64,000 bases of DNA from assembly GCF_009687865.1 (NCBI RefSeq), contig NZ_BLAE01000058.1, positions 1 to 64,000 of the forward strand, written 5' to 3'. Below, one piece after another: positions 41,201 to 62,630 of the stretch (the stretch's first letter is position 1; every line of letters begins with the position of its first letter). Under the pieces are notes generated by a model. It was not told the origin of the DNA, ran no database searches, and worked only from the letters and a program-made list of their open reading frames with translations. Both the position numbers and the translations under genes were made by a program. The DNA is from Acrocarpospora macrocephala. Its GTDB lineage: Bacteria; Actinomycetota; Actinomycetes; Streptosporangiales; Streptosporangiaceae.

Positions 41201-41494
41201 ATGGGACCGACAGTCGGCCAGGGACAGTGGCCGGACATGAGAACCGCCGTACCAGGCATGGGCGCGCCGCCGGCGGGACCGGCGCAGATGCAGTGCGCGG
41301 CGGCACTGCAACGGCTGTACGGATGGCTGCAAGCGGTCCTCCCGCAAGCGCCCCAGTACACCGGCGCCGTACCCCTGGCAGTCGAGGCCGTGCGCCTGTA
41401 CCGGAACGGCCACTTCGACGCGTGCCTGGCACAGATCCAGCAGGTGGCCGACTTCATCGGCAGAGGCGGCCAGCCCTACCTGCCGACACAGTGA
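41201..41494 (+). CDS. Small unknown protein in subtilisin operon
   Basis: 97 residues, not recognised. A Gly/Pro/Met-rich head (about 1-28, similar in style to the preceding protein) leads into a helical part with the segments CAAALQRLYGWLQAVLPQAP and AVEAVRLYRNGHFDACLAQI. It has two cysteines. AGGAG lies seven bases before the ATG. It ends in a GTGA overlap with the next gene, so both are translated together. It may bridge the glycine-zipper protein and the protease; that is a guess from context. Confidence 0.65.
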   Translation: MGPTVGQGQWPDMRTAVPGMGAPPAGPAQMQCAAALQRLYGWLQAVLPQAPQYTGAVPLAVEAVRLYRNGHFDACLAQIQQVADFIGRGGQPYLPTQ

Positions 41495-41736
41495 CCGGGC
41501 CATACGACCCCGGCCGGGTGCCGTACATGATCGGCGGTCCGGACCCGTCGTTGCTCGCGGAGCTGGCGGGGCAGCTCCGCGACGATCCCGAGGTGACGAT
41601 CCGGCGGATCGTGGGCCCACCGGACCGGCCGAGCCTCCTCGCCGTGGACATGCCCCCCGCCCGCGCCGGCGCCCTCCAGGCGCAATACGGGACGCGCCTG
41701 ACGATCGAGCCGGACGCCCCCATCGAGCTGTTCTGA
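41491..41736 (+). CDS. Stand-alone prodomain-like protein (putative protease inhibitor/chaperone)
   Basis: 81 residues from a GTG overlapping the previous stop. The part LRDDPEVTIRRIVGPPDRP then SLLAVDMPPARAGALQAQY then TIEPDAPIEL lines up with the N-terminal domain of the next gene's protease (LLERDPKVEVRRRVEAPER, GTLAVGG, MTQEHAAALSRQL, VHIERDRLL). So this is a free copy of the subtilisin prodomain region, of the I9-like type that acts as folding chaperone or inhibitor. The alignment was made by eye. No signal peptide. Confidence 0.65.
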   Translation: MTGPYDPGRVPYMIGGPDPSLLAELAGQLRDDPEVTIRRIVGPPDRPSLLAVDMPPARAGALQAQYGTRLTIEPDAPIELF

Positions 41737-41760: not shown

Positions 41761-43569
41761 ATGAGCGGCAACGGTAATGCCAGGAACGCGGACAAGCCGC
41801 CACGACCCCGTCCGACCTCCCGTGCCAGGGCGAAGCAGGAGCCGGTGCAACAGCGGGCTCGGCGTTATATGGCGGCGGTGCTGCCCCAGCCGTACCTGCA
41901 GGCGAAAGGCATCACGGCCCCGGATCTGGACGCCGCGGCCCTGCACGATCTGCTGGAACGTGACCCCAAGGTGGAGGTACGCAGGCGGGTGGAGGCACCG
42001 GAGCGGATGGGCACGCTGGCCGTGGGCGGCGTGTCGCTGGGCGGTGTGACGGTCGCCGACATGACCCAGGAGCACGCGGCGGCGCTGAGCCGGCAGCTGC
42101 CCCAGGTGCACATCGAGCGCGACCGCCTGCTCACCTACACCGCCGTGTCCCAGACGCCGCGCCGGGAGGCCCGCCACCAGCTGGTCCTGCCGGTCGGCGT
42201 GGACGCGAGTTTCACCTTCCTGGTCATGGACACCGACGGCAAGCCCATTCCCGACGCCTCCATCCTGGTCAACGGCTACCTGTGGCCCGCCCAGGTGGTC
42301 ACGGGACCGGATGGCCGGGGCACGGTCACGATGACCGGGGAGACGCCCGAGTCCATCGCCAGCGTGCAGGTGAAACCGGCGGGCGGGCACTGGAGCCAGC
42401 TGGCCGTCCGGCCCGCCCTGAAGAAGAACGGCGACAATCTCATCGTCCTGAAGAAACTCTCGGACACCCTGCCCGACTTCCCCGACAAGCAGGTGTTCGG
42501 CTGGGGCCAGCAGGCCATGCAGCTGCACCGGCTGCCCCCGAACTTCCGCGGGGCGGGCGCCAAGATCGCCATCGTCGACTCGGGCGCCGACGTCGATCAC
42601 CCGGACCTGGCCGGCCGGGTGAACGCCGGAGTCGACCTGTCCGATCGCAAGCAAACCGGGTGGAAGGTCGACACCGTCCATCACGGCTCCCACTGCGCCG
42701 GGATCGTCACCGGCGCCGACACGGGCCGGGGCATCGTCGGCTTCGCCGTCGAGGCGGAGGTGCACGCCTGCAAGATCTTCCCCGGCGGCCGGCTCAGCGA
42801 TCTCATCGAGGCGCTGGACTACTGCATCGACAAGGAGATCGATGTCATCAACCTGAGCCTGGGCACCAAGGAGTTCTCCCCGCTCGTCGCGGCCAAGCTC
42901 GAAGAAGCCCGCAACGCGGGCGTCGCGTGCATCGTCGCGGCCGGAAACGACGGCGGGCCGGTCAACTTTCCCGGCAACATGCCCACGGTGCTCGCGGTGG
43001 CGGCGATCGGCAGGACCGACACGTTTCCTTCCGACAGCGCGCACGCCGACGTGATCCGCCCACCGCAAACCGCCGAGGGATACTTCTCCCCCGCGTTCAC
43101 CTGTTTCGGGCCCGAGATCGACCTGTGCGCCCCAGGCGTGGCGATCCTGTCGGCGATCCCCCCGGACGAGTACGCGGCCTGGGACGGCACCTCCATGGCC
43201 GCTCCGCACGTCACCGGCCTGGCCGCGCTGATCGTGGCCCATCACGGCGACTTCCAGGGCCAGTACAGAACCAGGGACGCCCGGCGGGTCGAGCGCCTGT
43301 TCGACATCCTCAAATCCAGCTGTACGCCCCTGAACCTCGGCGACCCGTACCGAACAGGAGCGGGGCTGCCCGACGCGATGCGCGCGCTCGCGCCCGCGCT
43401 CAACGGTGTCGCGGCGCAGTCGCCACTGGACCAGCTCACCCAGGAGATGCTGGCCGCCGGTCTGCTCACCACCTTCACGCAGGACACCACCGCCGTGGCC
43501 GCGCTGGCCCGGCTCTACGCGGAGATGGTCGCGGCAGGCCTCATCGGCGCCGGCATGCCCGTCCGGTGA
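41761..43569 (+). CDS. Cytoplasmic-type S8 (subtilisin) serine protease
   Basis: 602 residues without a signal peptide. In order: a basic Pro/Arg head (1-35), a prodomain-like part (38-126), an Ig-like or carboxypeptidase-regulatory beta unit (145-232), the S8 catalytic domain (about 265-490) and a helical tail to 602. The triad is visible: Asp273 in IVDSGAD, His311 in HHGSHCAG, Ser478 in DGTSMAAPH; oxyanion Asn396 lies in AAGNDGGP. All residues are intact, so it should be active. Last gene of the operon with the glycine-zipper protein, a 97-residue protein and a free prodomain copy. The second S8 gene at 53604-55253 shares the catalytic fold but not the flanking domains. Confidence 0.9.
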   Translation: MSGNGNARNADKPPRPRPTSRARAKQEPVQQRARRYMAAVLPQPYLQAKGITAPDLDAAALHDLLERDPKVEVRRRVEAPERMGTLAVGGVSLGGVTVADMTQEHAAALSRQLPQVHIERDRLLTYTAVSQTPRREARHQLVLPVGVDASFTFLVMDTDGKPIPDASILVNGYLWPAQVVTGPDGRGTVTMTGETPESIASVQVKPAGGHWSQLAVRPALKKNGDNLIVLKKLSDTLPDFPDKQVFGWGQQAMQLHRLPPNFRGAGAKIAIVDSGADVDHPDLAGRVNAGVDLSDRKQTGWKVDTVHHGSHCAGIVTGADTGRGIVGFAVEAEVHACKIFPGGRLSDLIEALDYCIDKEIDVINLSLGTKEFSPLVAAKLEEARNAGVACIVAAGNDGGPVNFPGNMPTVLAVAAIGRTDTFPSDSAHADVIRPPQTAEGYFSPAFTCFGPEIDLCAPGVAILSAIPPDEYAAWDGTSMAAPHVTGLAALIVAHHGDFQGQYRTRDARRVERLFDILKSSCTPLNLGDPYRTGAGLPDAMRALAPALNGVAAQSPLDQLTQEMLAAGLLTTFTQDTTAVAALARLYAEMVAAGLIGAGMPVR

Positions 43570-44507: not shown

Positions 44508-44606
44508 CGCCGATCAAGGACGAAGGCCGGAAGGATACTGTCCTGAAATACCGGCATTCTTCCGACATACTTATCCGCCTACCGTGTGATCGGAGGACGG
44601 TCGGTA

Positions 44607-46490
44607 ATGCCGGAACGTATAGGGGATTACTCGCTGACCAGCGTGCTCGCGGAGGATGACCACAGCACGGTGTACGCGGCGACCTCACCGGCCGGGGCAC
44701 GGGTCGCCATCACCCTGTTCAAGACCAGGTTGCGCGACCCGGACGAGTTTCTCACCAGGATCGAGAACCTCCAGTCGGGCCCGGCCTACCATTCCGCCTC
44801 GATCGTCGACGCGGGTACGTCGGGCGGCATGCCGTACGTGGTGAGCGAGTTCGTCGAAGGCCCTTCGCTGGCCGCGCACGTCGCCGAGCACGGGCCGCTG
44901 ACCGGGGCCGCGCTGCACCGGCTGGCCATCGCCACGATGACCGCGCTGGTTCCCGTGCATCAGGCGGGTGACGCGCACGGCGCGCTGCGACCGGCGGCGG
45001 TGCTGCTGGGGCCTGACGGTCCCCGGGTCACCGGAGCCGGGCTGGCCAGGGCGGTGGACGAGTCCGCCAAGGACGAGGAGTGGGTGCGGGCCTACACCAC
45101 GCAGAAAGTGCGCTCGCCCGCGTTCGAGGCGCCCGAGCAGTTCCGCGGCGAACCGGCGGGCCAGGCGGCCGACATGTTCTCGTGGGCGGCCATGATGGCG
45201 TTCGCCGCGACGGGCAGATCCCCGTTCGAGGGCGGATCCCCATCCGCGACGATGAACCAGGTCCTGCACGGCGAACCGGATTTATCCGGATTACCCGAGC
45301 CGCCTAGGGAGGTGGTCGCCGACTGCCTGGCCAAGGAGCCCGGCGCCCGCCCGACCGCGAGCCAGGCGTTGATGCGCCTGGTCGGGCACGCGCCGCTCAC
45401 CATCGAACGCGACGACATCCCGACGCCCCCACCGGCGCCGGCGCCCCCACCGCCGAAGCAGCCGCGCAGGTTCGGGCTGCTGATCGGCGCGGCGGCGGTC
45501 GCGATCGTGGTGCTGGCGGGCGGCGGCGGGCACGTGATCGCCCGCTCCACCACCCCCGTGACGACGCGCGTGGCGAGCGCGGCCACCGCCCCCGGGGTGA
45601 GCACGGTCTCCGCCTCCGCGGAACCCACCCCGCCGCCCGAGCCGACCTCCCGCGTCAAGGTTCCCGGCGTGGACATGACGCTGCTGGAGCACCCGTCCGA
45701 CGTGACCACGCTCACCGCCTACCGGAAAGGCGAGGACACCTACGTCAGGAACGGCCCTCTCGGCGAGTTCACCAAACTTCCCAGCAAGAACGGCGAACCG
45801 GTGCTCTCCCCCGACGGCCGCACGCTGGCCGTCTTCACTCCCGCCGCGGTCGCGTTCACCGGCGACCGGCCGTTCACCGTCTCGCTCGAACCCTACGGAA
45901 CGACCGAACGCCCGACCTGGTCGAGGGACGGCAAGCAGCTCCTGCTGACCGCCCTGAGCGACGGGAAGCCGTCCGGTTTCGTGCTGATCGACATGGCCAC
46001 CCAGCGGGCCACCCTGGTGGACACCGACGACGAGACCACCGGCGGCGAGGTCGGCTACGCCTGGCTGCCCGACGGCGCCGGCGTGGCGGTCGGCTACCAG
46101 CCGGAACGCGACGGCAAGACCGGCCACGGGGTCCGGTTCCGTGGCCTGGACGGCGCCGAACGAAAGAGCATGCACTGGGTCGGCGAGATGTACGGGCGCC
46201 GCATGTACTCCCCCTCCGGCCGGCATTTCGTGACGTACTGCCCCAGCGGCGGCACCTTCTGCGTGTGGGACAGCGCGACCGGCGTGCGCCTGGCCTCCAT
46301 CGGCATCTTCTACGAAGACAGTTTCCTGAGCGGCTGGTACGACGACGCCCACCTGATCGTGGCCGACCCGCGCGAGAAGACACACAAGATCGTGGCCATG
46401 GACCTGCGTGGCCGTTCCCCCCGTGTCCTGGCCGAGATCTCCGCCAAGGACGACACCGATGATCTGCTGCTGTACTACACCAGGAGCTGA
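44607..46490 (+). CDS. Membrane-anchored pseudokinase with extracellular propeller-like domain
   Basis: About 627 residues. The N-terminal 270 have the fold of PknB-type Ser/Thr kinases but lack catalysis: the glycine loop is gone (SVLAEDDHSTVYAA), the HRD-K-x-x-N loop reads AHGALRPAAV and DFG reads TGAG. One lysine (ITLFKTR) survives. A proline-rich linker, one membrane helix (FGLLIGAAAVAIVVLAGG, about 300-318) and a WD40/TolB-like extracellular part (LLTALSDGKPSGFVLID, YMYSPSGRHFVTYC) follow. First of three adjacent paralogs; the ATG at 44607 has GGAGG about ten bases upstream. Probably a receptor subunit working with the active paralog. Confidence 0.82.
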   Translation: MPERIGDYSLTSVLAEDDHSTVYAATSPAGARVAITLFKTRLRDPDEFLTRIENLQSGPAYHSASIVDAGTSGGMPYVVSEFVEGPSLAAHVAEHGPLTGAALHRLAIATMTALVPVHQAGDAHGALRPAAVLLGPDGPRVTGAGLARAVDESAKDEEWVRAYTTQKVRSPAFEAPEQFRGEPAGQAADMFSWAAMMAFAATGRSPFEGGSPSATMNQVLHGEPDLSGLPEPPREVVADCLAKEPGARPTASQALMRLVGHAPLTIERDDIPTPPPAPAPPPPKQPRRFGLLIGAAAVAIVVLAGGGGHVIARSTTPVTTRVASAATAPGVSTVSASAEPTPPPEPTSRVKVPGVDMTLLEHPSDVTTLTAYRKGEDTYVRNGPLGEFTKLPSKNGEPVLSPDGRTLAVFTPAAVAFTGDRPFTVSLEPYGTTERPTWSRDGKQLLLTALSDGKPSGFVLIDMATQRATLVDTDDETTGGEVGYAWLPDGAGVAVGYQPERDGKTGHGVRFRGLDGAERKSMHWVGEMYGRRMYSPSGRHFVTYCPSGGTFCVWDSATGVRLASIGIFYEDSFLSGWYDDAHLIVADPREKTHKIVAMDLRGRSPRVLAEISAKDDTDDLLLYYTRS

Positions 46491-46496
46491 CCCACG

Positions 46497-48392
46497 ATGT
46501 CCCCCGTTCTCCCGTTGGAACCGCAGGAGCGGCTCGGGCCTTACAACCTGGTCGCCCGGCTGGCCGACGACCGCGTCTTCCTGGCCGAGTCCCCGACCGG
46601 CGAGCAGGTCGTGCTGCGGCGGCTGACCAGGCCCATGGACAGCAGGGCCAGGGACGCGGTGGCCCGGATCTGGGAAACCGCCGCCGTCGGCACCGCGCAC
46701 ATCCTGGACGTCGGCCGCGACTACGTGGTCACCGAATACGTCCAGGGCCCGACCCTGGAGGAGGAGATCGCCAATCGCGGCCCGCTGACCGGCACCGCCC
46801 TGCACCGCCTGGCCATCGCCACCGCGACCGCGCTCGCCTCCCTGCACCGCGCCTCCCTCCACCACGGCCGGGTACGGCCCAGCAAGGTCGTGCTCGGCTC
46901 CGACGGCCCCCGCCTGCTCAACCCCGACCGGACCCGGCCGGTCACCGCGTTCGACGAGGACCGGTGGCGCCGCCCGGAAGAGGAGGAAGGCCCCGCCGCG
47001 GACGTCTTCGCCTGGGCGGCCGTAGTCGTGTTCGCCGCCACCGGCAGGCCGCCCTTCGACGCGGACGCCGACCGCCGCCGCTCGTACGGCGCGGCCGACC
47101 TCGGCCCGATGACCGGCCCGCTGCGCGACCTGGTGGCCGACTGCCTGGCCGAGGAACCAGAAGACCGGCCGACCGCCGAGGAAGCGCTGCTCCGCCTGCT
47201 CGGCCACTCCGGCACCCTGGACACGGCCATCCCGGACGGCACCGCGCCCCGGACCGCCCCGTCCCCCATCCGGCGGACCCGCTCCCGGCTGCCGCTGCTG
47301 ATCGGCGGCGCGGTGGCGCTCGCGCTGGTGGCCGGGGCGACCGGCTACTTCGCCACCCCGCGCACCCCCCGGACGGTCACGGTCGCCGCCCCCACCCCCA
47401 CTACGCCGGTGGCGTCGGCTCCCTCGGTCCGTCCCCCCACCCCGATCCCGACGACCGGCCTGTCGGCGATCAGCCTGCCCGACGACGTGGGCACCGTCTT
47501 CGAGCACCCCGACGACCCCATCCAGCTCTCGTCGTTCCAGATCACCACGGCGGACGACCAACGCATTCCGTACGCGAGAACCGGCCAGGGATACACCAAG
47601 ACGGGCGACCACTACGACCTGTCGGTGCTCTCCCCCGACGGCCGCTGGCTGGCCACGATGAACGAGTTCTACCTGGCGCGGCAGAACCAGATGGACATCA
47701 CGTTCACCGACCGGAAGAGCAACGCCACCTTCACGCTGCCCACGGTGAACTCCCCGATCACCGCCCACTACCCCGTCTGGTCCCCCGACAGTCGCACCCT
47801 GCTGCTGAGCCTCTGGTACACCGAAGACTCCGACAAGACCTACCCGAACGGCTTCATGAAGATCGACCCCGTGGCCCGCACGACCACGGTGGTCGAGACG
47901 TTCAACCGCGACGACATCGCCCAGTTCCTCACGCTGCCCGCGAACCTCCGCACCGAGTCCATGGCCGCCTACACGTGGACCCCCGACGGGCAGGGCGTCG
48001 CCTCCGCCTACCTCACCCCCCTGGAGACGTTCGGCCTGCGGCTGTTCGACACCGATGGACGGGTGCTGCGGAGCCTGCACTGGGTGGGCAGGGTCTCGGG
48101 GCAGGACTGGTTCTCGCCGTCCGGCGACCTGCTGGTGACCACCGGCTGCGAGACGAAATTCGCCGCCTGCGTGTGGGACGCGGGCACCGGCGAGCGGCGC
48201 GGCAGCGTGCCCGCGCGCGAGGGCCAGAACCTGCTCGGCTGGTTCGACGAGACGCATCTGATCACCGCACGGAAGGACGGTGACACCTACGTGGCCGAGG
48301 TGGTGGACATGACCGGGAAGGCGGTCCGGGTGCTGGCCGAGCTGCACAGCAAAAAGGGCGGGGTCAGCCAGCTGTTCTTCACGCCGAAGTAG
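46497..48392 (+). CDS. Second membrane-anchored pseudokinase with propeller-like domain
   Basis: 631 residues, same layout as the preceding gene. The kinase-like part (1-245) has RLADDRVFLAES for the glycine loop, arginine in place of the ATP lysine (VVLRRLTR), HHGRVRPSKVVL for the catalytic loop and NPDRT for DFG, so it cannot transfer phosphate by the usual chemistry. One membrane helix (LPLLIGGAVALALVAGAT) and an extracellular propeller-like domain (LSPDGRWLATMNE, WSPDSRTLLLSLW, WTPDGQGVASAYL) follow. It lies six bases after the first pseudokinase with AGGAG before its ATG, and six bases before the third gene, so one operon. Confidence 0.82.
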   Translation: MSPVLPLEPQERLGPYNLVARLADDRVFLAESPTGEQVVLRRLTRPMDSRARDAVARIWETAAVGTAHILDVGRDYVVTEYVQGPTLEEEIANRGPLTGTALHRLAIATATALASLHRASLHHGRVRPSKVVLGSDGPRLLNPDRTRPVTAFDEDRWRRPEEEEGPAADVFAWAAVVVFAATGRPPFDADADRRRSYGAADLGPMTGPLRDLVADCLAEEPEDRPTAEEALLRLLGHSGTLDTAIPDGTAPRTAPSPIRRTRSRLPLLIGGAVALALVAGATGYFATPRTPRTVTVAAPTPTTPVASAPSVRPPTPIPTTGLSAISLPDDVGTVFEHPDDPIQLSSFQITTADDQRIPYARTGQGYTKTGDHYDLSVLSPDGRWLATMNEFYLARQNQMDITFTDRKSNATFTLPTVNSPITAHYPVWSPDSRTLLLSLWYTEDSDKTYPNGFMKIDPVARTTTVVETFNRDDIAQFLTLPANLRTESMAAYTWTPDGQGVASAYLTPLETFGLRLFDTDGRVLRSLHWVGRVSGQDWFSPSGDLLVTTGCETKFAACVWDAGTGERRGSVPAREGQNLLGWFDETHLITARKDGDTYVAEVVDMTGKAVRVLAELHSKKGGVSQLFFTPK

Positions 48393-48397
48393 GCCGC

Positions 48398-50206
48398 GTG
48401 GAGCCGAGGGAGATCGGCGGCTACCCGATCGTGCGCACGCTCGGGGCCGGCGGCCAGGGGGTGGTCTACCTGGCGGACGCGCCGACCGGGCGGCAGGTCG
48501 CGATCAAGGTGCTGCACGCGGTGTCCGACACGACAGCGGTGAGCCGGTTCCTGCGTGAGGCCGAGGTGCTGCCGGAGGTGGCGTCGTTCTGCACCGCGCA
48601 GGTGCTGGAGACGGGTACGGCGGACGGGGTGCCGTACATCGTCAGCGAGTATGTGGACGGGCCGACCCTGCACCAGGCGGTGCGGGAGCGAGGGCCGCTG
48701 CGCGGGGGCGAGTTGCGGCGGCTGGCGACAGGGACGATGACGGCGCTGGTCGCGATCCACAAGGCCGGGGTGGTGCATCGGGACTTCAAGCCGGGCAACG
48801 TGCTGCTGAGCCGGGACGGGCCGCGGGTGATCGATTTCGGTATCGCGTTCACGGTGGGGGCGGAGGCGACGTCGGCGGGGCCGCTGGGGACTCCCTCGTA
48901 CATGTCGCCCGAGCAGCTCGCCGATGAGCGTCCTGGGCCGGCGGCGGACATGTTCGCGTGGGCGTCGACGATGGTGTTCGCGGCGTCGGGGTATCCGGCG
49001 TTCGGGGCGGATACCCTGCCTGCCGTACTCAATCGGATCATGCACGCGGAGCCGGATCTGGGTGGTCTTGAGGGTGATCTGCGGGAGCTGGTCGCCGAGT
49101 GTCTGGCCAAGGATCCTGGTGCGCGGCCCAAGGCGGAAGAGGTGTTGCTGCGGCTGCTTGGGGCCGGTCCGGCGGCGCGGCCGCGGGTGCGGTGGTGGCG
49201 GGTGGCGGTGGCCGGGGGGATCGCGCTGGCGGCGGTGGCGACGACGGTGGCGGTGCTGCGGCTGAACGCGGCCCCGGCGCAGGTTCCGCCCGCCGTGGCG
49301 CCGCCAACGGTCGCGTTGCGGCTGTCGGGGGCGCCCGCGCGGGACACCAGGGAGATTCGGGTGCCGGAATTGAAGGCGGTCTTTCACGAGCATCCGTCGG
49401 ATCCCGTCAAGCTGGCGTCGTTCCTGGTCAGGGAGGGGATGTTGCGGGAGCCCGCGTATGTGCGGACGCCGGGGAAGGAGACGTTCGAGCGGCTGGAGGA
49501 GTTTCGCGATCCGGTGGTTTCGCCGGACGGGCGGTTCGTGGCATCCATCTACCGGTTCAACAGCACCGTGGGGGCTGCGGCCAACGACGTGCAGTTCACT
49601 GATCGAGAGACGGGCGCGAGTTTCTCGGTGCCCACCGTCGCGAAGCCGATGCTGATTCGGCAGCCCGTCTGGGCGGACGATAATCGGCGGCTGCTGCTGA
49701 CCTTGCACCAGGAGGACAAGGTGCGCGGATTCGCGATCGTGGACATGCTGGCCAGAACGTCGACGACCGTCACCCTCGATCTGGACGGCTATCAGAACTT
49801 CAGCTGGGCACCCGATGACACCGTGATGGCCGCCACTGCCGACGGCCTGCACTTCCACCGCCTCGACGGCAGCGAATTACGCACCCTAGACATGCTCCGG
49901 GTGGTCAATCCATCAGCGGCCGGTTTCTCCCCATCTGGACGTCTCACCGCAGCACTGTGCGCCAAACCCACCCGCTCGGTATGCGTGGTGGACACCACCA
50001 CGGGCGAGGAACGCTCACGCTTCCCCCTGCCCACAGGCGCACATCTCTGGACCTGGTTCAACGAGGACCACCTCATCATCTTCAACAACACCCCAGACCC
50101 ATGGACCGTCACCATCGTCAACCTCACCGGCCAAACCATCCGCCCATTCGCCGAAATATCCGGCACAGACGACACCTTCTGGCTCCTCCACTGGAGCCAG
50201 CGTTAG
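48398..50206 (+). CDS. Active PknB-type Ser/Thr kinase with extracellular propeller-like domain
   Basis: 602 residues. Unlike its two upstream paralogs it keeps every kinase element: LGAGGQGVVYLAD, the lysine in VAIKVLHA, HRDFKPGNVLL, IDFGIAF and the activation segment GTPSYMSPEQLA. A membrane helix (VAVAGGIALAAVATTVAVL, about 268-286) and a WD40/TolB-like extracellular domain follow. It starts at GTG 48398, five bases after the second pseudokinase; no strong RBS is seen, so it probably relies on coupling. The stop overlaps that of the convergent LanC-like gene by four bases. The three proteins may form a heteromeric receptor in which only this subunit phosphorylates. Confidence 0.9.
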   Translation: MEPREIGGYPIVRTLGAGGQGVVYLADAPTGRQVAIKVLHAVSDTTAVSRFLREAEVLPEVASFCTAQVLETGTADGVPYIVSEYVDGPTLHQAVRERGPLRGGELRRLATGTMTALVAIHKAGVVHRDFKPGNVLLSRDGPRVIDFGIAFTVGAEATSAGPLGTPSYMSPEQLADERPGPAADMFAWASTMVFAASGYPAFGADTLPAVLNRIMHAEPDLGGLEGDLRELVAECLAKDPGARPKAEEVLLRLLGAGPAARPRVRWWRVAVAGGIALAAVATTVAVLRLNAAPAQVPPAVAPPTVALRLSGAPARDTREIRVPELKAVFHEHPSDPVKLASFLVREGMLREPAYVRTPGKETFERLEEFRDPVVSPDGRFVASIYRFNSTVGAAANDVQFTDRETGASFSVPTVAKPMLIRQPVWADDNRRLLLTLHQEDKVRGFAIVDMLARTSTTVTLDLDGYQNFSWAPDDTVMAATADGLHFHRLDGSELRTLDMLRVVNPSAAGFSPSGRLTAALCAKPTRSVCVVDTTTGEERSRFPLPTGAHLWTWFNEDHLIIFNNTPDPWTVTIVNLTGQTIRPFAEISGTDDTFWLLHWSQR

Positions 50207-51597
50207 TCCTGGGCGGTGTCGATGACGTCGCGTTCGGCGTATTCGACGTCTTCGATTTGGTTCAGGGTGGTCAGGGCTGAATCGACGTCGACGTCTGGAG
50301 GGATGCGGAGGAGGGCGCGGCCGTGTGGGGATACTCGTTCTACCTGGCAGCCGGGGACGGCGGCGCGGAGGCGGTCTACGCGGAGGCGTAGGTCCTCGGG
50401 GTCCGGGGAACGGCTGAGTTGCACGATCACACGGGTTGTCATGGTTCTTCCAGCATAGGCGAGTGCGGTGGAAGGGATCTGGGGGTGCTGGGCTCGGAGT
50501 AAGGCGGTGCCGATTCCGGCCAGGCCCAGGAACAGGCTCGGGTTCTCGTCGCCGCCGGGGATTCCGCATGGCCATGAGCCGTCGCCTACAAGATCGATAG
50601 CGATGGCGGCGGCGTCGCGGGCCGCCTCGCGGAGCACTGGCTGGCCGAAGGTGGTCGCGGCGTCGAGGAGGAGTTCGATCGCGCCGGACAGGCCGTGGCA
50701 GAGGGACAGATCTGGCTTTCCGTTGGCCATGGCGGCGATCAGGCGGAGTGCCGCGTCCACCGCGACCCCGGCCTCGGCGGCGTAGATCTGGTGTCCGGTC
50801 ACGTCGTACTGCCGGAGCCTGGCCTGGCCGATTCCGAGCGCACCATGACACCAGTAGATCGGCCAGGAGCGCTTTTCTCGCAGGTCAGGCCAGTTGCCCT
50901 GGTCGGCGGAGAACCAGGCACGTTCGAAGTCCGCCGCTTCTGCGGCCAGGCGTAGGCCGTCTGGTTTGCCCCATTCGGTGAGGGCGAGGGCAACGCCGGA
51001 GGCGCCGTGCGCGAGACCGCAGAGTGGGGGTGTGTCGATGTCGGATGGCCAGCAGGTGCCGCGTACCGGGCCCGGGCGGGCGTCGTCGATCAAGCTCTGG
51101 GCGAGAGTGTCGGCGGTTGTCGCCGCGAGTTCGGCTTCGGGGCCGCTTCGGGACAGATGGAGCAGGGCGAGCAGGGTTCCGGCCCGGCCGCAGATCAGGT
51201 CGACCGCCTGAGGGATCCGCTGGCACGTCAGGCGGGTGAGGCGGGTTGCGGTTTCCATCAGGCGGTCGTCGGCCAGGAGTTCGGCGGCTTCGAGGGTGGC
51301 GGTGGCGACGCCTGCCGTACCAGAGAGGAGTGCGCCGTCCGGGCGGGTGCGTCTGACCCAGTTGGCGGCGTGGGCCAGGGCGCCGCGGGCCGTGCGGGCC
51401 GCTTCGGTGTCGCCGCTGATCGCCGCATATCGGGCCAGGTAGAGACCGATGCCCGCCGTGCCGCCATAAAGATCGCCGTCGACCGCGCGGTAGACGACCG
51501 TGCCCTCGCCGGAAGGTGACGGCACACATTCGTCGCCGAACCAGGTGGCATGCTCGCCATCCCACAGCGCCTCTTTGACCAGTTTCTCCGCGATCAC
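50203..51597 (-). CDS. LanC-like lanthionine cyclase with C-terminal prodomain-like extension
   Basis: 464 residues. Residues 1-385 form the LanC alpha/alpha barrel with a complete zinc site: His197 in CGLAHGAS, Cys250 in YWCHGALG, Cys300-His301 in LCHGLSG. LanC enzymes add cysteine thiols to dehydroalanine or dehydrobutyrine to make (methyl)lanthionine rings. Residues 386-464 are an extra domain (TTRVIVQLSRSPDPEDL to VEYAERDVIDTAQ) whose end closely resembles the prodomain end of the operon's own subtilisin (IEYVEPDVVDRAQ). An in-frame ATG with GGAAG upstream opens this domain at 50442. GTG start overlapping the previous stop (GTGA). Last gene of the five-gene minus-strand operon. Confidence 0.88.
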   Translation of the reverse strand: MIAEKLVKEALWDGEHATWFGDECVPSPSGEGTVVYRAVDGDLYGGTAGIGLYLARYAAISGDTEAARTARGALAHAANWVRRTRPDGALLSGTAGVATATLEAAELLADDRLMETATRLTRLTCQRIPQAVDLICGRAGTLLALLHLSRSGPEAELAATTADTLAQSLIDDARPGPVRGTCWPSDIDTPPLCGLAHGASGVALALTEWGKPDGLRLAAEAADFERAWFSADQGNWPDLREKRSWPIYWCHGALGIGQARLRQYDVTGHQIYAAEAGVAVDAALRLIAAMANGKPDLSLCHGLSGAIELLLDAATTFGQPVLREAARDAAAIAIDLVGDGSWPCGIPGGDENPSLFLGLAGIGTALLRAQHPQIPSTALAYAGRTMTTRVIVQLSRSPDPEDLRLRVDRLRAAVPGCQVERVSPHGRALLRIPPDVDVDSALTTLNQIEDVEYAERDVIDTAQD

Positions 51598-52478
51598 GGG
51601 GAGGCCTCCAGCAGGTGAGGACGAATCGGATCGATTCCCGCGGCCTTGAACCCGTTCACGATCGCCTGAGTGACAACCGTGGGATCACGACGCGCCTGAG
51701 GCGCCATTTCCCGCCATATCCGCTCAAGCACCTGACACCTCGCCGCGCCAAAACTGTCCCCGTCGAGCGACCCTTCCGCCTGCCCAACCCCCGGCGCGAT
51801 CGCCGCACAGAATCGCGGCCGCGCAGGTCGCAACACATCACACAATTCCCGGACAGCCGCCCGCAGCTCCCCATCCAGCGCCACCGCATCAGGCGCACCC
51901 AAATACAACACGATCGCATCAGCCCGCCCCTCATGCTCCAGCGGCGTCTTGAGCTGGTACGAAACCCCACGATGCTTACCCAACAACCCCGTGAGAACCT
52001 CAACCGCCCGAGGCACATCATCCGGGGCCACATTCAGATATGTCCGCATCAACCGATCCGCCCCCGGCGGCGGCCACACCCCCTGCCGCGTGTACCAAAA
52101 CCCATGCTCAGCGTCACACCAGGTCCAAGCCGCCCGCGCCAACAACGCATCTCCCTCCCGCGCCGCCAACCCAGGCCGAGCCGGTACGACATACGCCCCT
52201 CGCCCCAAATACCTCCTGAACTCCCCCTTACACGCGACGACTCCCCCCATACCAACCACCGACTCCACCCGCCACCCACCCACGAACCGGGTGGCGTCAG
52301 CATGCGCGGCATCGAGAACCCCAGCCAGGTTGACATCCACAGGCGTAGGCCCACCTACCCTCACGGGAAGCGGCGTCATCGCCAGATACCAGGAGTAAAG
52401 CGCCTCCTCCACATCCGGCTTATCGGCAGGGAAGCCCGCCAGCAGCGCCCCCGCGCGGGGAATGTCGGGATGAATCAT
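51594..52478 (-). CDS. HopA1-domain protein (LanY-type lyase)
   Basis: 294 residues of the HopA1/T3-effector-like family, which in class V lanthipeptide clusters removes phosphate from phospho-Ser/Thr to give dehydro residues. Family features: RTYLNVAPDDVPRAVEVL near residue 150, YQLKTPLEHEGRADAIVLYL near 180, APGVGQAEGSLDGDSFGAARC near 250. The ATG at 52478 overlaps the stop of the small upstream frame (ATGA), with GGAGG nearby. The opening MIHPDIPRAG repeats with changes twice in the 190 bases before it. The HopA1 assignment is by pattern; phosphothreonine lyase activity is inferred from the neighbouring kinase and LanC-like cyclase. Confidence 0.8.
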   Translation of the reverse strand: MIHPDIPRAGALLAGFPADKPDVEEALYSWYLAMTPLPVRVGGPTPVDVNLAGVLDAAHADATRFVGGWRVESVVGMGGVVACKGEFRRYLGRGAYVVPARPGLAAREGDALLARAAWTWCDAEHGFWYTRQGVWPPPGADRLMRTYLNVAPDDVPRAVEVLTGLLGKHRGVSYQLKTPLEHEGRADAIVLYLGAPDAVALDGELRAAVRELCDVLRPARPRFCAAIAPGVGQAEGSLDGDSFGAARCQVLERIWREMAPQARRDPTVVTQAIVNGFKAAGIDPIRPHLLEASP

Positions 52479-52678
52479 CCTTCGACCTCCCGAGACCAGA
52501 TCTTCCATTCACGAATGCCGAGAGAATTCACCCAGCCACTGCCTACATCCACCGAAGCCTCCGACCAGCTCCCCCGTGGGGAAATATCGGGATAAACCAC
52601 ACGGCCACCTCCAGCGTCCGCCGAGGCGCACGACCGCCCGCCCCACACGGAAATATCCGGATAAATCACGCAGCCACC
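52457..52678 (-). repeat. Three direct copies of a translation-start module
   Basis: On the minus strand, GGAGGTGGC followed after a few bases by GTG and TTTATCCSGATATTTCC occurs at about 52678-52645 and 52607-52574. A third, diverged copy (GGAGGTCGAAGGATG then ATTCATCCCGACATTCC) at about 52490-52457 is the actual start of the HopA1 gene. Each copy bears an RBS, a start codon and codons for (I/V)(Y/H)PDI. Confidence 0.65.
52475..52669 (-). CDS. Small frame with duplicated YPDIS start, between kinase and HopA1 gene
   Basis: 64 codons from a GTG with GGAGGTG at ideal distance; the GTG overlaps the kinase gene's last codons and the stop overlaps the HopA1 ATG. The product begins MIYPDISVWGGRSCASADAG, contains a second VVYPDISPRGSW, and has one cysteine. 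It could be a translated peptide, even a RiPP precursor, but composition and repeat structure fit better with a tandemly copied 5' end of the HopA1 gene that keeps translation coupled. I do not assign a function. Confidence 0.4.
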   Translation of the reverse strand: MIYPDISVWGGRSCASADAGGGRVVYPDISPRGSWSEASVDVGSGWVNSLGIREWKIWSREVEG

Positions 52679-53598
52679 TCCTGCGTCAGGACCTCTCGTG
52701 CCAGTGCCCGGTGGCGGGCGACTTCGGTTGTGGCGTCGTCCAGCCAGGTGGTGAGTTGGAGCGCCCGTACCAGCAAGCGGCAGGCCACGAAGGCGGCCAG
52801 GTGCGGAAGATCAACTGGTCGGCTGGTGGCGTACCCGTCGAGGAAAGCGCGGACCGTGGTCGAAGGGGGGTGGAAGCTGGCGCCGGAGCTGAGGTACTCC
52901 TGGATTCCTCCGGCCACGTCCCAGCGGGAATCGCCCGCCCCGGCGGATTCCCAGTCGATCAGGACGGCGTCGCCGCCGGGGCGGATGAGGACGTTGCTGA
53001 ATCGGACGTCGCCGTGGACGGTGGTGTCGCAGGCCCAGGCCGTACCGACGGTGGAGAGGGCGGTGCGGTGGGCGGGGTCGGCGAGGATGTCGGCGGTGAG
53101 GGAGCTGAGGCGTTCGTGGCGGTTCAGGACCGGGAGGCGGGACGGGCCGTCGAGGTCGAGCAGCCAGGGGCGGGCGGGTTTCAGGGGCAGGCCGGCCGCC
53201 AGGTGGTGCCAGGCGCCGAGCGTGCGGCCGAACACCGCGGCCCAGCGCGGGTCGAGCGGATCGTGCGGCGCGGCGAGCCGATCCAGCCGCCGCGCCGCGA
53301 TCACACCTTCCAGGACGAGCAGCCCCGCGTCGGGATCGTGCAGCTCCAGCCGGGGCAGCATGGCAGTGCCACCCGCGACCTGATAGAGCGCGATCTCCCG
53401 TTCCGGCTCGCCCTGGCCGCCCTCCCGCGGCGTGCCCACGTCCTTGACGGCGAAGCCCTGGCCGTTGCCGAGTTCGACCAGGATGACACCGTTGGACTCG
53501 GAGACGTCACGCGCGCTGAGGCCGTAGCGGTGCACGTCGGCGGCGTGCACCAGGCCGCTGTCGAGCAGCAGCCTTACGGCCCGGCGGGAGAGGCTCAT
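52666..53598 (-). CDS. APH-fold kinase (LanK-type) for peptide/protein Ser/Thr
   Basis: 310 residues of the aminoglycoside-phosphotransferase-like kinase fold. ATP lysine Lys52 lies in FAVKDVG, the catalytic loop HGDVRFSN at 195-202 and the metal-binding IDWE at 214-217; all key residues are present. It lies between a subtilisin with a Cys/Ser-rich tail and HopA1 plus LanC-like genes. That three-enzyme set is used by class V lanthipeptide systems, where such a kinase phosphorylates Ser/Thr before elimination. So the substrate is probably a peptide segment, not an antibiotic. It starts five bases after the protease stop with GAGG upstream. Confidence 0.82.
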   Translation of the reverse strand: MSLSRRAVRLLLDSGLVHAADVHRYGLSARDVSESNGVILVELGNGQGFAVKDVGTPREGGQGEPEREIALYQVAGGTAMLPRLELHDPDAGLLVLEGVIAARRLDRLAAPHDPLDPRWAAVFGRTLGAWHHLAAGLPLKPARPWLLDLDGPSRLPVLNRHERLSSLTADILADPAHRTALSTVGTAWACDTTVHGDVRFSNVLIRPGGDAVLIDWESAGAGDSRWDVAGGIQEYLSSGASFHPPSTTVRAFLDGYATSRPVDLPHLAAFVACRLLVRALQLTTWLDDATTEVARHRALAREVLTQEVAA

Positions 53599-53603
53599 CG
53601 GGG

Positions 53604-55253
53604 TCAGACCTCGTGGACTTCGCCGTCGTCGTCCACGTAGAACCAATCGCCTTGACTCGCGGACGATTCGCCCGACATGCGGCGCTCCAGTTCCTCCAGT
53701 CGTCCCACGATCTCGTGCAGGACGGGATCGACCGGCGGACGAACGGGGATGTTCGGGTCGCACAGCTCCGACCTGCAGCCCAGGCTCGACTGGCAGCCGT
53801 CGACCACCGAGGGACAGCGCAGGCCGCTGACGCAGCCCGTGCCGAGCCGCGTCGTCTGGCACAGGATCGGCAGCCTCGACGGGCAGTTGACCTGCAAGAA
53901 GGTACGGCAGATGGTGAGCGTGGACGGCTCGCACAGCACGATCCGGCTCCGGCACGGCCCGATCCTGGTGACCGGAATGATGAGATCACCGCAGGTCAGC
54001 GCCGCCCGCGCGGCCACCCGCCCGTGACCCCAGCTGTTGTCGAACGCCGCCGCCCCCAGCTTGACCGCGCTGTCCTGCAAGCACTGCTTGATCTTGGCGT
54101 TGGTGTGGCCGGGATGCCTGCTCCACATCAGCGCCGCCAGCCCTGTCACCAGCGGCGTCGCCATGGACGTGCCGCTCAGCGAGCCGTAGTTGAGCGGCAG
54201 CGTCGGGCTGACACTATAGGTCGGCAGCGTGGACAGAATGTTCCGGCCCGGCGCGACGACCGTCACCTCGGGTCCGATGTTGGAGAAGCTGGAGATCACG
54301 TCACCCGGATCGGTCGACCCGACCGCGACCACGCCCGGAATGCTCGTCGAGTACGCGGCCGGCCAGATCACCGGCCCTCCGTTGTCGTTCCCGGCGGCGG
54401 CGATCACGAGCATGCCGCGGTCGGAGGCGTACTGGCAGGCCTGCTGCTTGGTGTTGTTCGCCGGGCCGCCGCCGGAATAGTTGATGACCGCCTTCAGCCC
54501 GCGCGCCACCGCGTAGTCGGTGATCTCCTCGACCGCGTCCGCGAAGTCCGCCGACCCGCCGTTCCCGCTCGCGTCCAGGGTCCGACAGATGTAGACCGGC
54601 GACCCCCAGTTCATCCCCGCGATCCCCGTCGCGTTGTTGCCCGCCGCCGTGGCGATCCCCGCCACATGCGTGCCGTGCCCGTTCAGATCCCGCGGCGTCC
54701 CCCCGTCCACGAAGTCCGTCCCGAGCGTGGTCCTGGCCGCGTCCCGGAGATCGTCGTGATCGAGCACGTCCGCGCTCATCGAGATCCCCGAGTCGATGAT
54801 CCCGATCAGCACGTTGCCCGCGCCCGTCTCGAGATCCCAGGCCGCCTCCGCGCCCACCGCGGTCGGCCCCCACTGCTGCGCGAACCTCGGATCATTCGGC
54901 ACGATCTGCGCCCGATCAACGACGTCCGGCTCCACATACTCGATAGCGGACGTCGTCTCCGCGACCCCCACATTCGCCAGCACCGTGTCCGCCGCCGAAC
55001 CCACCTCCGGCAACAAGACCACGAGCCGACCGGTCGCGCTGGGCCCCCGTACGACGGTGGTCCCCTCCGGCAGCGCCGCCAGCGCCGCACTCACCCGCGC
55101 CGCGACCCCCTCCTCGCCGGCGACCTCCTCGCCAGCGGCCCCTTCCGCCAGCTGCACAATGAGCCGCCGCGCCACAAACCGCACCGCCTCATCCCGGAAC
55201 TCCCCCGCCACCACCTCAAGCCCCGTGTTCTCCGCGGGATTCTCCTCCAGCAT
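53604..55253 (-). CDS. S8 serine protease with C-terminal Cys/Ser/Thr-repeat tail (putative lanthionine substrate)
   Basis: 549 residues, no signal peptide. Prodomain-like part (about 24-117, ending IEYVEPDVVDRAQ), S8 catalytic domain (about 145-420) with Asp154, His196 (NGHGTHVAG), Asn289 (AAAGNDNGG) and Ser363 (SGTSMATP), all intact. Then residues 421-498 hold eleven cysteines (421, 434, 441, 449, 457, 465, 474, 480, 487, 493, 498). Between them Ser or Thr sits one to three residues after each Cys and two to six before the next, as in CRSRIVLCEPSTLTIC. The last 48 residues are a helical/acidic end (DWFYVDDDGEVHEV). GGAGGAGGGG before the ATG. First gene of the operon with kinase, HopA1 lyase and LanC-like cyclase. 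Confidence 0.88.
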   Translation of the reverse strand: MLEENPAENTGLEVVAGEFRDEAVRFVARRLIVQLAEGAAGEEVAGEEGVAARVSAALAALPEGTTVVRGPSATGRLVVLLPEVGSAADTVLANVGVAETTSAIEYVEPDVVDRAQIVPNDPRFAQQWGPTAVGAEAAWDLETGAGNVLIGIIDSGISMSADVLDHDDLRDAARTTLGTDFVDGGTPRDLNGHGTHVAGIATAAGNNATGIAGMNWGSPVYICRTLDASGNGGSADFADAVEEITDYAVARGLKAVINYSGGGPANNTKQQACQYASDRGMLVIAAAGNDNGGPVIWPAAYSTSIPGVVAVGSTDPGDVISSFSNIGPEVTVVAPGRNILSTLPTYSVSPTLPLNYGSLSGTSMATPLVTGLAALMWSRHPGHTNAKIKQCLQDSAVKLGAAAFDNSWGHGRVAARAALTCGDLIIPVTRIGPCRSRIVLCEPSTLTICRTFLQVNCPSRLPILCQTTRLGTGCVSGLRCPSVVDGCQSSLGCRSELCDPNIPVRPPVDPVLHEIVGRLEELERRMSGESSASQGDWFYVDDDGEVHEV

Positions 55254-60782: not shown

Positions 60783-62630
60783 TCAGCGGATTCGGGCTGC
60801 CCTTTCCTGGACGCGCGGACTATCTGGGGCGAGGCGCTGGGCCAGTTCAATGGCGGTCCGTGCCTCGTCAGCGCGGTCCAGTTCCATCAGTGCGATGGCA
60901 CGGGCCGAATGTACGTCAGCCTCGTCCTCGGATTCGAGGGTGTGGCCGAGTGCCTGGTCGAGATCGAGGAGTGCGCGGTCGTAGAGCCGTAGGTCTACTC
61001 TGACCTGGCCGCGGCCGGCCAGGGCTCGGCCGGTGGAGCGGCCGGTGGCCAATGCTTGGGTGAAGAAGGCTTCGGCGTCGGCGGGGGAGCCCAGGTTCCA
61101 TAGGGCCTGGGCGTAGCCGAGGAGCGCCTCGGCGTCTGCGCGGTTGCGTTCCACCGCCTGCCGGTACAGGTCGGCTGCGGCCTGATGGTCTCCGCTGGTG
61201 GCCAGCACGCTCGCCAGGGCGGACATCGATTTCGCAGTGGACACCTGATCGGCCAGGGACTCGAAGCCGTTGAGCGCCTCCCGGAAGCTCTCTCCGGCGG
61301 TTCGCAGATCGCCTTCGATCAAGGCGATCTCGCCGTGCAGCGCCATCGCCTGGGCTTGCCTGCGGGTGTCGCCGTCGGCCGCGAACCGGGACGCCGCGAC
61401 GGACGCCAGCCGCCGGGCCCCGGGAAAATCGCCGGCGCCGAAGGCGCTCTCGGCCGCGTCGGCGAAATCCGCCGGGCGGATCTCCTCGGGCTCGGCGGGG
61501 CGCGGGACCGCGAACCAGGCGGCGTTGGACTGGCGGACCGCGTCGATCATCAGATCCTGGCTGAGCTGATACCAGGTGCTCCGCAGGCGGGAGCGTGCCG
61601 TCAGCACGTGCCGTTCGGCCAGGGCGTCGGCGAGGGCGTTCGGCATGTCCGCGGTGCTGGCCAGGCCGCGGAGTTTGGTGCCGCGGGTGCCGTACTCGGT
61701 GATGAAGGCGGACTCGATCCACCGTCGCACGCCGTCCTCGGAGATCCCGGTCTCCAGCGCGGCCGCGCGCACGGCCCGCTCGTAGAAGCGTGCGATCGCG
61801 TGGCGCACGTCGAGCGTGGCGGCCTGGTCGGGGTCTTCCCAGAGCTCGGAACAGACGATCTGCAGGTGCAACGGCTCGACCAGCGGCGTGGTGATGGTGG
61901 CGGTGTTGCCGAGCAGGTCGGTGTAGGTGCTGGCGCGCAGCCGGTCGATGATCTCGCGTACGGTCTCCGGCGCCCATTCGTGGGACGTGCCCCTGGTCGG
62001 GCCCTGAATGGCTTCGCTCGCCGCCGGTTCGTCGAGCGCGTCCAGCCGCCGGTACGTGAAGGGCATCCGGAACAGGCTCTCGCAGGCCGTCACCGAAGCC
62101 AGGTGATCGTCTCGGACCAGCAGCAGCAGGTTGAGCGCGGGAATCGCGCGAAGCGCGTCGGCCAGCTGGCTCAGCAGGCCGGTGCGCTCGGCCAGCCTGG
62201 TGGGGAAGGCGGCGAAGACCTCCTCGAACTGGTCGATCGCTCCGAGTAGTCGGCCGGCGGGTCCCAGGCCGCCCGCCCGGTCGGCGAGGAACTCCGAGAC
62301 CGTGCTGCCGGGCCGGGGCAGCACGCCACCGGCCCAGTCGCTCAGCACGGTGTAGACGTAGCCGTTGTGCGGCGGCGCGGCCAGCGGGCGGGCCGGTAGC
62401 GAGACCCGGCTGGGTGGCAGCGCGACCACCTGGAGTTCCTGCTCCATCGGCGGCAGCACACCGGCATTGAGCAGCGACGTCTTCCCCACCGCCGCGGAAC
62501 CGTGCAGGACGGTCACCCGATCGGCCAGCCAATCGAACTGCACGCTGCGCGCCTCCGCCTCGCGCCCGAAAAAGAGCCGGGCTTCCGACCGGAGGAACGG
62601 ACGGGGACCGACGTACGGTGAACCGTTCAT
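60783..62630 (-). CDS. STAND ATPase (nSTAND1-type) with TPR repeats, defence candidate
   Basis: 615 residues. After the opening SPYVGPRPFLRSEARLFFGR, typical of nSTAND1 proteins, come Walker A (GSAAVGKTS, 44-52) and the Walker B-like AIDQFEEVF near 140. The helical winged region leads to about seven TPR-like repeats (390-610). STAND proteins oligomerise on sensing a trigger and activate a partner. The ATG overlaps the stop of the SIR2 gene (ATGA), so the two are made together: the SIR2 protein is the likely effector and this the sensor. A longer frame to 62777 overlaps SIR2 and is rejected. Confidence 0.86.
   Translation of the reverse strand: MNGSPYVGPRPFLRSEARLFFGREAEARSVQFDWLADRVTVLHGSAAVGKTSLLNAGVLPPMEQELQVVALPPSRVSLPARPLAAPPHNGYVYTVLSDWAGGVLPRPGSTVSEFLADRAGGLGPAGRLLGAIDQFEEVFAAFPTRLAERTGLLSQLADALRAIPALNLLLLVRDDHLASVTACESLFRMPFTYRRLDALDEPAASEAIQGPTRGTSHEWAPETVREIIDRLRASTYTDLLGNTATITTPLVEPLHLQIVCSELWEDPDQAATLDVRHAIARFYERAVRAAALETGISEDGVRRWIESAFITEYGTRGTKLRGLASTADMPNALADALAERHVLTARSRLRSTWYQLSQDLMIDAVRQSNAAWFAVPRPAEPEEIRPADFADAAESAFGAGDFPGARRLASVAASRFAADGDTRRQAQAMALHGEIALIEGDLRTAGESFREALNGFESLADQVSTAKSMSALASVLATSGDHQAAADLYRQAVERNRADAEALLGYAQALWNLGSPADAEAFFTQALATGRSTGRALAGRGQVRVDLRLYDRALLDLDQALGHTLESEDEADVHSARAIALMELDRADEARTAIELAQRLAPDSPRVQERAARIR

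Follow-up and report, generated by a model that had tools for sequence, protein, structure and literature searches.

Lanthionine synthetases are known for small peptides. In the sets of LanK, LanY and LanC that have been named class Vb (SmoC/SpcC type), a stand-alone kinase, a HopA1-type lyase and a LanC cyclase act on a precursor peptide (PMC12328550). The same three types of enzyme are encoded in a four-gene operon of Acrocarpospora macrocephala, which is the subject of this study. It occupies positions 50203-55253, on the minus strand, of a stretch of 64,000 nt (contig NZ_BLAE01000058.1, positions 1 to 64,000), in the following called the window, and comprises, in this order, the genes for an S8 (subtilisin-like) protease, the kinase, the HopA1 protein and LanC. 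Here, the candidate substrate is a 549 aa protease instead of a precursor peptide, and LanC has a prodomain-like domain. Based on sequence comparisons, we consider it likely that the C-terminal tail of the protease is the cis substrate of the operon's own lanthionine synthetase and is modified while still attached. The original prediction, a note made from the DNA letters alone, had recognized the enzyme types of class V biosynthesis. The kinase, HopA1 lyase and LanC families and their motifs were confirmed, whereas the set as such is not novel, because the review already lists it as class Vb (PMC12328550). The enzyme set is, therefore, of a known kind. By a strict test the operon is not a class V member, as the short precursor is missing, but it would work like one.

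Other described systems share single features with the operon. Borosins of the omphalotin type likewise carry the core at the C-terminus of an enzyme and modify it in cis (PMC7878506, PMC8429565). In borosins, the fused enzyme is the modifying α-N-methyltransferase, whereas here it is a protease accompanied by three separate modifying enzymes, so that an assignment to the borosins was rejected. Subtilisin prodomains (Fervidolysin_NPro-like, PF22148) provide a second parallel, with the difference that the domain is found here at the C-terminus of the cyclase and not at the N-terminus of a protease. Proteusin/NHLP precursors have a large, folded, enzyme-derived leader that is not known to be a protease. 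The present proteins are alike in this large folded part, and they differ by protease triads that are intact in two folds. Proteusin leaders have been described as not short and unstructured (PMC10858898). LanCL proteins also bring the LanC fold to whole proteins, but perform an intermolecular glutathione addition that clears electrophilic residues from the proteome (PMC9934072). Neither a protease-borne lanthipeptide substrate nor a LanC-prodomain fusion was encountered among the matches listed in the open-licence literature, read as titles and beginnings of abstracts. New here is the prodomain-like domain on LanC, which is present in all six S8-type operons and had been missed in the original prediction.

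The protease gene (53604-55253) starts with an ATG at 55253 that is preceded by a good, GGAGGAGG-like ribosome-binding site. The protein is composed of a presumed N-terminal prodomain (residues 22-116; 54906-55190), delimited by alignment and profile comparison with the LanC C-terminus, the S8 catalytic domain (residues 117-420; 53994-54905), a Cys/Ser/Thr array (residues 422-498; 53760-53990) whose ten Cys are the presumed (methyl)lanthionine sites, and a C-terminal follower (residues 499-549; 53607-53759) that ends with WFYVDDDGEVHEV and may serve as a recognition element. Only 5 nt separate the protease stop from the start of the gene for a LanK/LxmK-like APH-fold kinase of 310 aa (52666-53598). 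After a gap of 157 nt follows the gene for a HopA1-family (LanY-type) phospho-Ser/Thr lyase (51594-52508), for which an alternative start is possibly located at 52478 (MIHPDIP). The gene for the LanC-type zinc cyclase (50203-51597) overlaps it by 4 nt. LanC has a C-terminal extension with the subtilisin-prodomain-like domain (residues 386-464; 50206-50442). A small ORF between the kinase and HopA1 genes (52475-52669) has one Cys and lacks a counterpart in genome G209, where the two genes overlap.

Pfam matches were obtained for the protease (Peptidase_S8, E 9.5e-48), the lyase (HopA1, 2e-18) and the cyclase (LANC_like, 6.8e-50). For the kinase, Pfam matches are weak, and NCBIfam LxmK is matched with E 2e-13 and 50 bits at an equivalog cut-off of 315. 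The window proteins contain the protease residues D154/H193/N289/S363, the kinase residues D197/N202/D215, the lyase residues R155/K187/R195/Y202 and the zinc ligands C250, C300 and H301. The lyase residues match R187/K219/R229/Y236 of CaoY in order and spacing (PMC9486802), with an identical R-to-K distance of 32, and LanC aligns with the LicM2 cyclase (6st5). Across the window and the relatives described below, these sites are retained: HGD...N and DxE-type motifs, which are the catalytic motifs of such kinases, were found in 8/8 aligned kinases, R, K, R and Y of the lyase in all eight tail-bearing operons with a readable LanY, the WCHG and xCHG zinc motifs of LanC in 8/8 tail-bearing operons, and intact triads in nine of nine array-bearing proteases of two folds. 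All four genes are real, correctly placed and have intact catalytic motifs. Thus, the coupled four-gene operon of the original prediction with its intact zinc ligands was borne out in coordinates, domains and motifs, and so was the Cys/Ser/Thr-rich tail of its first gene. A mycosin (type VII secretion) identity of the protease was rejected (TIGR03921, 152.7 bits against a cut-off of 278.75). PADLOC yielded a general subtilase match to the protease only. A hydropathy scan revealed no membrane-like segment in the window protease and no strongly hydrophobic N-terminal segment in all six S8-type proteases or the G219 protease (see below).

The array is regular. In the window protein, ten Cys are found within 77 residues, nine of them are followed by x(1-2)-Ser/Thr, and the spacing is far from chance. 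All ten Cys are preceded, inside their own inter-Cys segment, by a Ser or Thr at a distance of 3 to 7 residues. The rule was examined in seven arrays (window, G003, G210, G209, G219, G923 and G1082, without the near copies G004 and G002) and holds for 59/59 Cys. When each array was shuffled, 5000 rounds gave 24.1 on average and never more than 36; the array bounds were set by the analyst, with the start placed behind the final Cys of the catalytic domain. S8 tails and G219 had served to derive the rule, and the arrays of G923 and G1082, which were discovered later, obey it at 17 of 17 Cys. In G209, each segment contains one Ser and no Thr, which gives seven Ser for seven Cys. The proteases of the window and G004 are 94% identical, and the alignment of their arrays has a single gap, in which G004 lacks a complete unit comprising one Thr and one Cys, while the G003 array has four Cys units more than that of the window. 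Odd Cys numbers (7, 9) occur among the arrays, and single-Cys units come and go. When the four Acrocarpospora-type tails were compared pairwise, Cys was kept at 57/57 array positions, Ser/Thr (either) at 81/90 and other residues at 234/294. The end motif WFYVDDDGEVHEV is kept in 6/6 S8-type proteases. These features are more in line with a row of small thioether rings than with disulfides.

The S8-type operon is conserved as a unit. The closest named relatives of its HopA1 protein are found in A. pleiomorpha NBRC 16267 (96% identity) and A. phusangensis NBRC 108782 (76%). A search of the order (345 genomes) with this protein yielded 22 matching genomes at E 1e-5 and six at E < 1e-100, all from the family of the window. 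The window and four of the other five genomes have the complete set of four genes in the same order. In G003, the operon is split over two contigs, with the protease gene and the start of the kinase gene at the end of one and the remainder at the start of another. A search with the tail gave strong matches (E < 1e-19) in 6/342 genomes, the same six that have a LanY at E < 1e-100. Weak matches were seen in another 15 genomes (E 4.6e-4 to 0.01), plus one in G003, and were taken as chance. G001, the fifth genome of the genus of the window, has neither the operon nor a tail match. In the fetched stretches, no flanking gene is common to Acrocarpospora and the second genus, so the conserved unit consists of the four genes; an exporter, a second protease or a separate leader peptidase is not among them.

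An ordinary precursor was searched for in the flanks. Across the six loci (G003 on the protease side only), ORFs of 20-140 aa with at least two Cys and at least two Ser/Thr near the end were collected from 2.5 kb before the protease gene and 1.5 kb after the LanC gene. Among the 54 ORFs that start outside the operon there were three matching pairs. Each of them links the window with its near copy G004, and each lies within the neighbouring kinase gene (48398-50206). Hence, an ordinary small precursor in the locus was rejected, as no small Cys ORF is common beyond these two. This agrees with the original prediction, which had seen no ordinary Cys-rich precursor gene and had named a conserved one in relatives as evidence to the contrary. 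Carriage on plasmids or phages was likewise rejected, since S8 matches were absent at E 1e-60 in plasmids and 1e-30 in phages. The LanY search of plasmids gave two weak matches, and one protease relative lies on a Paenibacillus plasmid, where the gene as annotated leaves no room for an array.

The same enzymes accompany a second protease fold. In G219, a member of the family of the window, a kinase-HopA1-LanC set that is 32-36% identical to that of the window (tblastn) is located behind a Nal1/trypsin-type protease ending in a Cys array. A phylum-wide search of 396 genomes, eight of which had a match, uncovered G923 outside the class of the window: it has a 52%-identical protease that ends in repeats of the form VTRDPxxC and is followed by kinase, HopA1 and LanC. 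Among 66 genomes of the G923 class, G1082 contains an array with a kinase directly behind, where the contig ends. The three proteases share the C-terminal end [FY]WxGYx[AT]ALE and have 5, 9 and 9 Cys in the C-terminal part. In total, 59 Nal1/trypsin-type matches were obtained (48 in 40/342 genomes, 30 of these loci fetched, and 11 in 10/66, all fetched). Among the 41 loci fetched, the three with arrays all adjoin LanK. At the 38 array-free loci (≤2 Cys in this part), no kinase, HopA1 or LanC match was detected in the flanks, which were fetched over up to about 1.5 kb. Tails without modifying enzymes, the other counter-evidence named beforehand, were not met with: strong S8 tail matches and LanY coincide in the same six genomes, and 3/3 trypsin-type arrays lie beside LanK. 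Further surveys were read with a simple home-made gene finder that misses some genes. In 15 regions from the order search, G219 alone had a Cys-array protease, and among five further genomes of the phylum search, this was true for G923 alone. The class search (21/394 genomes matched) led to 17 regions on other contigs or genomes, and none was found in these or in a separate region of the window's own genome; they were read mostly within 3-11.5 kb of each region. The association of kinase-HopA1-LanC sets with Cys-array proteases of two folds supports the tail as substrate.

The C-terminal domain of LanC suggests a connection between cyclase and protease. Residues 386-464 of the window LanC match PF22148, the fervidolysin-type prodomain, with E 6e-4 and 20.5 bits (gathering score 21). 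Matches at E up to 0.1, the best 1.6e-5, were obtained for 6/6 LanCs of S8 operons, whereas ten other LanCs, among them two partners of trypsin-type proteases, yielded none at E 1. Among the LanCs scanned, the domain is restricted to S8-type operons. When the LanC C-terminus was compared with the prodomains of the partner proteases by hhalign, 76 columns were aligned (E 1.2e-6, probability 91%). A rerun scored 35.1, whereas 200 column-shuffled controls averaged 11.7 and reached 24.4 at most. Profile windows that overlap the prodomain scored 23-25, those over the rest of the protease ≤12. A search of the PDB with the LanC C-terminus gave no meaningful match. The end of LanC (DVIDTAQD) falls within one residue of the protease segment DVVDRAQ, just ahead of the catalytic domain. 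Since the domain is present in all six S8-type operons and absent from the ten other LanCs, LanC probably docks on its protease substrate through it.

A mechanism can be proposed. From the known chemistry of the families, a dehydration of tail Ser/Thr by kinase and lyase and a ring closure by LanC would be expected: the kinase would phosphorylate these residues, the HopA1-type lyase would eliminate the phosphate to yield Dha/Dhb, as in the dehydration by CaoK and CaoY (PMC9486802), and the zinc LanC would add the following Cys to Dha/Dhb by its zinc mechanism (PMC9934072). This would yield small (methyl)lanthionine rings that follow one another without overlap, about ten of them in the window protein and 4 to 14 in relatives. 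The prodomain-like domain of LanC would dock on the catalytic domain of the protease and thereby recruit the substrate, and the conserved C-terminal end of the protease is a likely second recognition element. As LanC ends about where the prodomain appears to end, the docked domain probably blocks the active site until modification is completed. Both the reactions on the tail and the docking are inferred.

Several observations weigh against this interpretation. The conserved unit is devoid of a transporter and a separate leader peptidase. The kinase scores far under the LxmK equivalog cut-off, and the PF22148 score of the window LanC is just under the gathering score. The ten domain-free LanCs include near copies (L043-L045; L048, L050, L051), the compared profiles are shallow with about 1.5 effective sequences, and plain BLASTP aligned only 13 residues of LanC C-terminus and protease prodomain (E 0.003). 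The end of the protease prodomain is a presumed one. If the Cys at the end of the catalytic domain, present in several proteins, is counted, the array rule holds for 10/11 Cys in the window and 4/5 in G219, whose short array is weak by itself (P 0.017). Finally, the HopA1 and LanC trees disagree on the joining of S8-type and trypsin-type operons. In the HopA1 tree (22 proteins), S8-type, two trypsin-type and G669 sequences form one group (support 100/99); the others were labelled by eye as class V, thioamitide-like or conventional. In the LanC tree (14 rows), S8-type LanCs group with conventional ones (99/97), and those of trypsin-type operons and G669 stand apart, with long-branch warnings. 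Owing to this disagreement, a single origin of the two protease types is no more than a possibility.

If the tail is modified in cis, it could stay on the protease or be released, and the two protease folds fit both outcomes. Retention as a rigid, digestion-proof stalk has slightly less than an even chance; we lean to it because a conserved segment lies after the array. The original prediction had envisaged lanthionine or methyllanthionine bridges in a full-length protease. From this claim, the tail as substrate is supported by co-occurrence, arrays and two folds, whereas a full-length protease as final product does not follow, since the tail could be cut off later. Such a release would be expected from a fused maturation protease and precursor, with the protease as leader and leader peptidase in one: the tail would be modified in cis and then cut free, in cis or in trans, as a multi-ring lanthipeptide. 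This main alternative is possible, though on balance doubtful. It would account for two different protease folds in the same operon position and for intact triads in 9/9 proteases. In addition, the S8 proteases NisP and LicP are known leader peptidases (PMC10885120), and the same enzyme types occur in clusters that have ordinary short precursors (L046, L048). However, the conserved segment beyond the array would remain on the product unless it is also removed, and an exporter does not belong to the conserved unit.

The other alternatives deny the cross-linked tail altogether. Cys-rich tails are common in secreted proteases, and the substrate of the enzymes is a presumed one, so the tail might be an ordinary disulfide-rich or metal-binding domain, with the enzymes acting on a substrate encoded elsewhere. 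We regard this as improbable: by hydropathy, a strongly hydrophobic N-terminus is absent from 6/6 S8-type proteases and from the G219 protease, which makes disulfides unlikely if the proteins are cytoplasmic, some Cys numbers are odd with single-Cys units coming and going, the Ser/Thr placement is far from chance, and the co-occurrence holds for two protease folds. It is very improbable that the S8 protein merely acts as a LanP leader peptidase on an unlinked precursor and that its tail is incidental. S8 proteases are indeed the standard lanthipeptide leader peptidases (PMC10885120), and fold and catalytic triad are present here. Yet, no precursor is conserved in the loci (an unlinked one elsewhere in the genome was not looked for), NisP and LicP are secreted (PMC10885120) whereas the hydropathy scan gave no sign of a signal peptide here, and array, whole-unit gap and LanC prodomain would be left unexplained. 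Least credible, with hardly any weight, is a tail that is decorated but not cross-linked, in which the enzymes would dehydrate Ser/Thr and LanC would join external thiols. Such an addition, of glutathione to Dha/Dhb of whole proteins, is carried out by human LanCL (PMC9934072), but every array Cys has its own Ser/Thr at ring distance, as needed for intramolecular addition.

Taken further, the cis modification of an attached tail allows a more tentative joint proposal, to which we give somewhat less credence than to retention alone: a working enzyme might permanently carry a tandem array of lanthionine rings put in by a dedicated synthetase, the cyclase of which doubles as prodomain-type inhibitor of this enzyme. 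Lanthionine stapling would then be a post-translational modification of functional proteins instead of a route to peptide natural products. It would be in use with two or more protease folds. In three distant actinobacteria, of which one has an array and two have degenerate relatives of the enzymes, it would lie beside CHAT and S8 protease genes. If true, a protease-borne substrate with two folds would widen the purpose of lanthionine chemistry, and substrate recognition could run through a folded enzyme. A LanC with a subtilisin prodomain would exemplify in nature how a borrowed inhibitor domain can target an enzyme to a protein substrate; this design could be useful for stapling chosen proteins. 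Genome-mining tools based on short precursors would miss such clusters.

The degenerate relatives are HopA1-LanC pairs in G669 (L097 5761-7898) and G997 (L153 7069-9014; not in the trees) that have lost the zinc Cys and the lyase Lys/Tyr. No kinase match was found within about 15 kb of these pairs, and no Cys-array protease was seen beside them. Because of this, arrays accompany intact enzymes among the loci examined. In G669 and G997 as well as in G923 with its intact trypsin-type operon, an S8 protease and a CHAT-domain protein are encoded beside the HopA1-LanC genes (L097 8154-13526, L153 9019-13928 and L152 5-5167, respectively). A sigma-70 region 2 match is above the cut-off in G923 and just below it in G669. 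These neighbours hint at a link to a regulated protease response. Another neighbour in L153 (4920-6617) contains 5 Cys within the final 150 residues.

Further kinase, HopA1 and LanC sets (L046 6470-10246; L048-L051) contain short Cys-rich ORFs resembling ordinary precursors and lend themselves to comparison; in L048-L051, HopA1 and LanC are fused in one protein. The genome of the window (G000) has a separate HopA1/kinase cluster on contig C47 (L113 5719-8310), in which short ORFs such as MPTDLLIEGADAYTSLAEI... resemble conventional class V precursors. The operon kinase (52666-53598) weakly matches TCAD9 (ternary complex associated domain 9; E 3e-4, below cut-off). Three tandem Ser/Thr kinase genes (44586-50206) run toward the operon. 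Pfam assigned a protein kinase above cut-off to two and just below it to the middle one, and two have a WD40-like (PD40) match. They were rejected as members of the unit, being kept in four Acrocarpospora genomes and absent beside the operon in G209 and G210. Another S8 protease is encoded at 41761-43569, and the small ORF directly before it (41491-41736) resembles a stand-alone subtilisin propeptide by eye, without a Pfam match. At 60783-63361, a SIR2-like gene adjoins an nSTAND1-TPR gene, and the two resemble a candidate defence pair.

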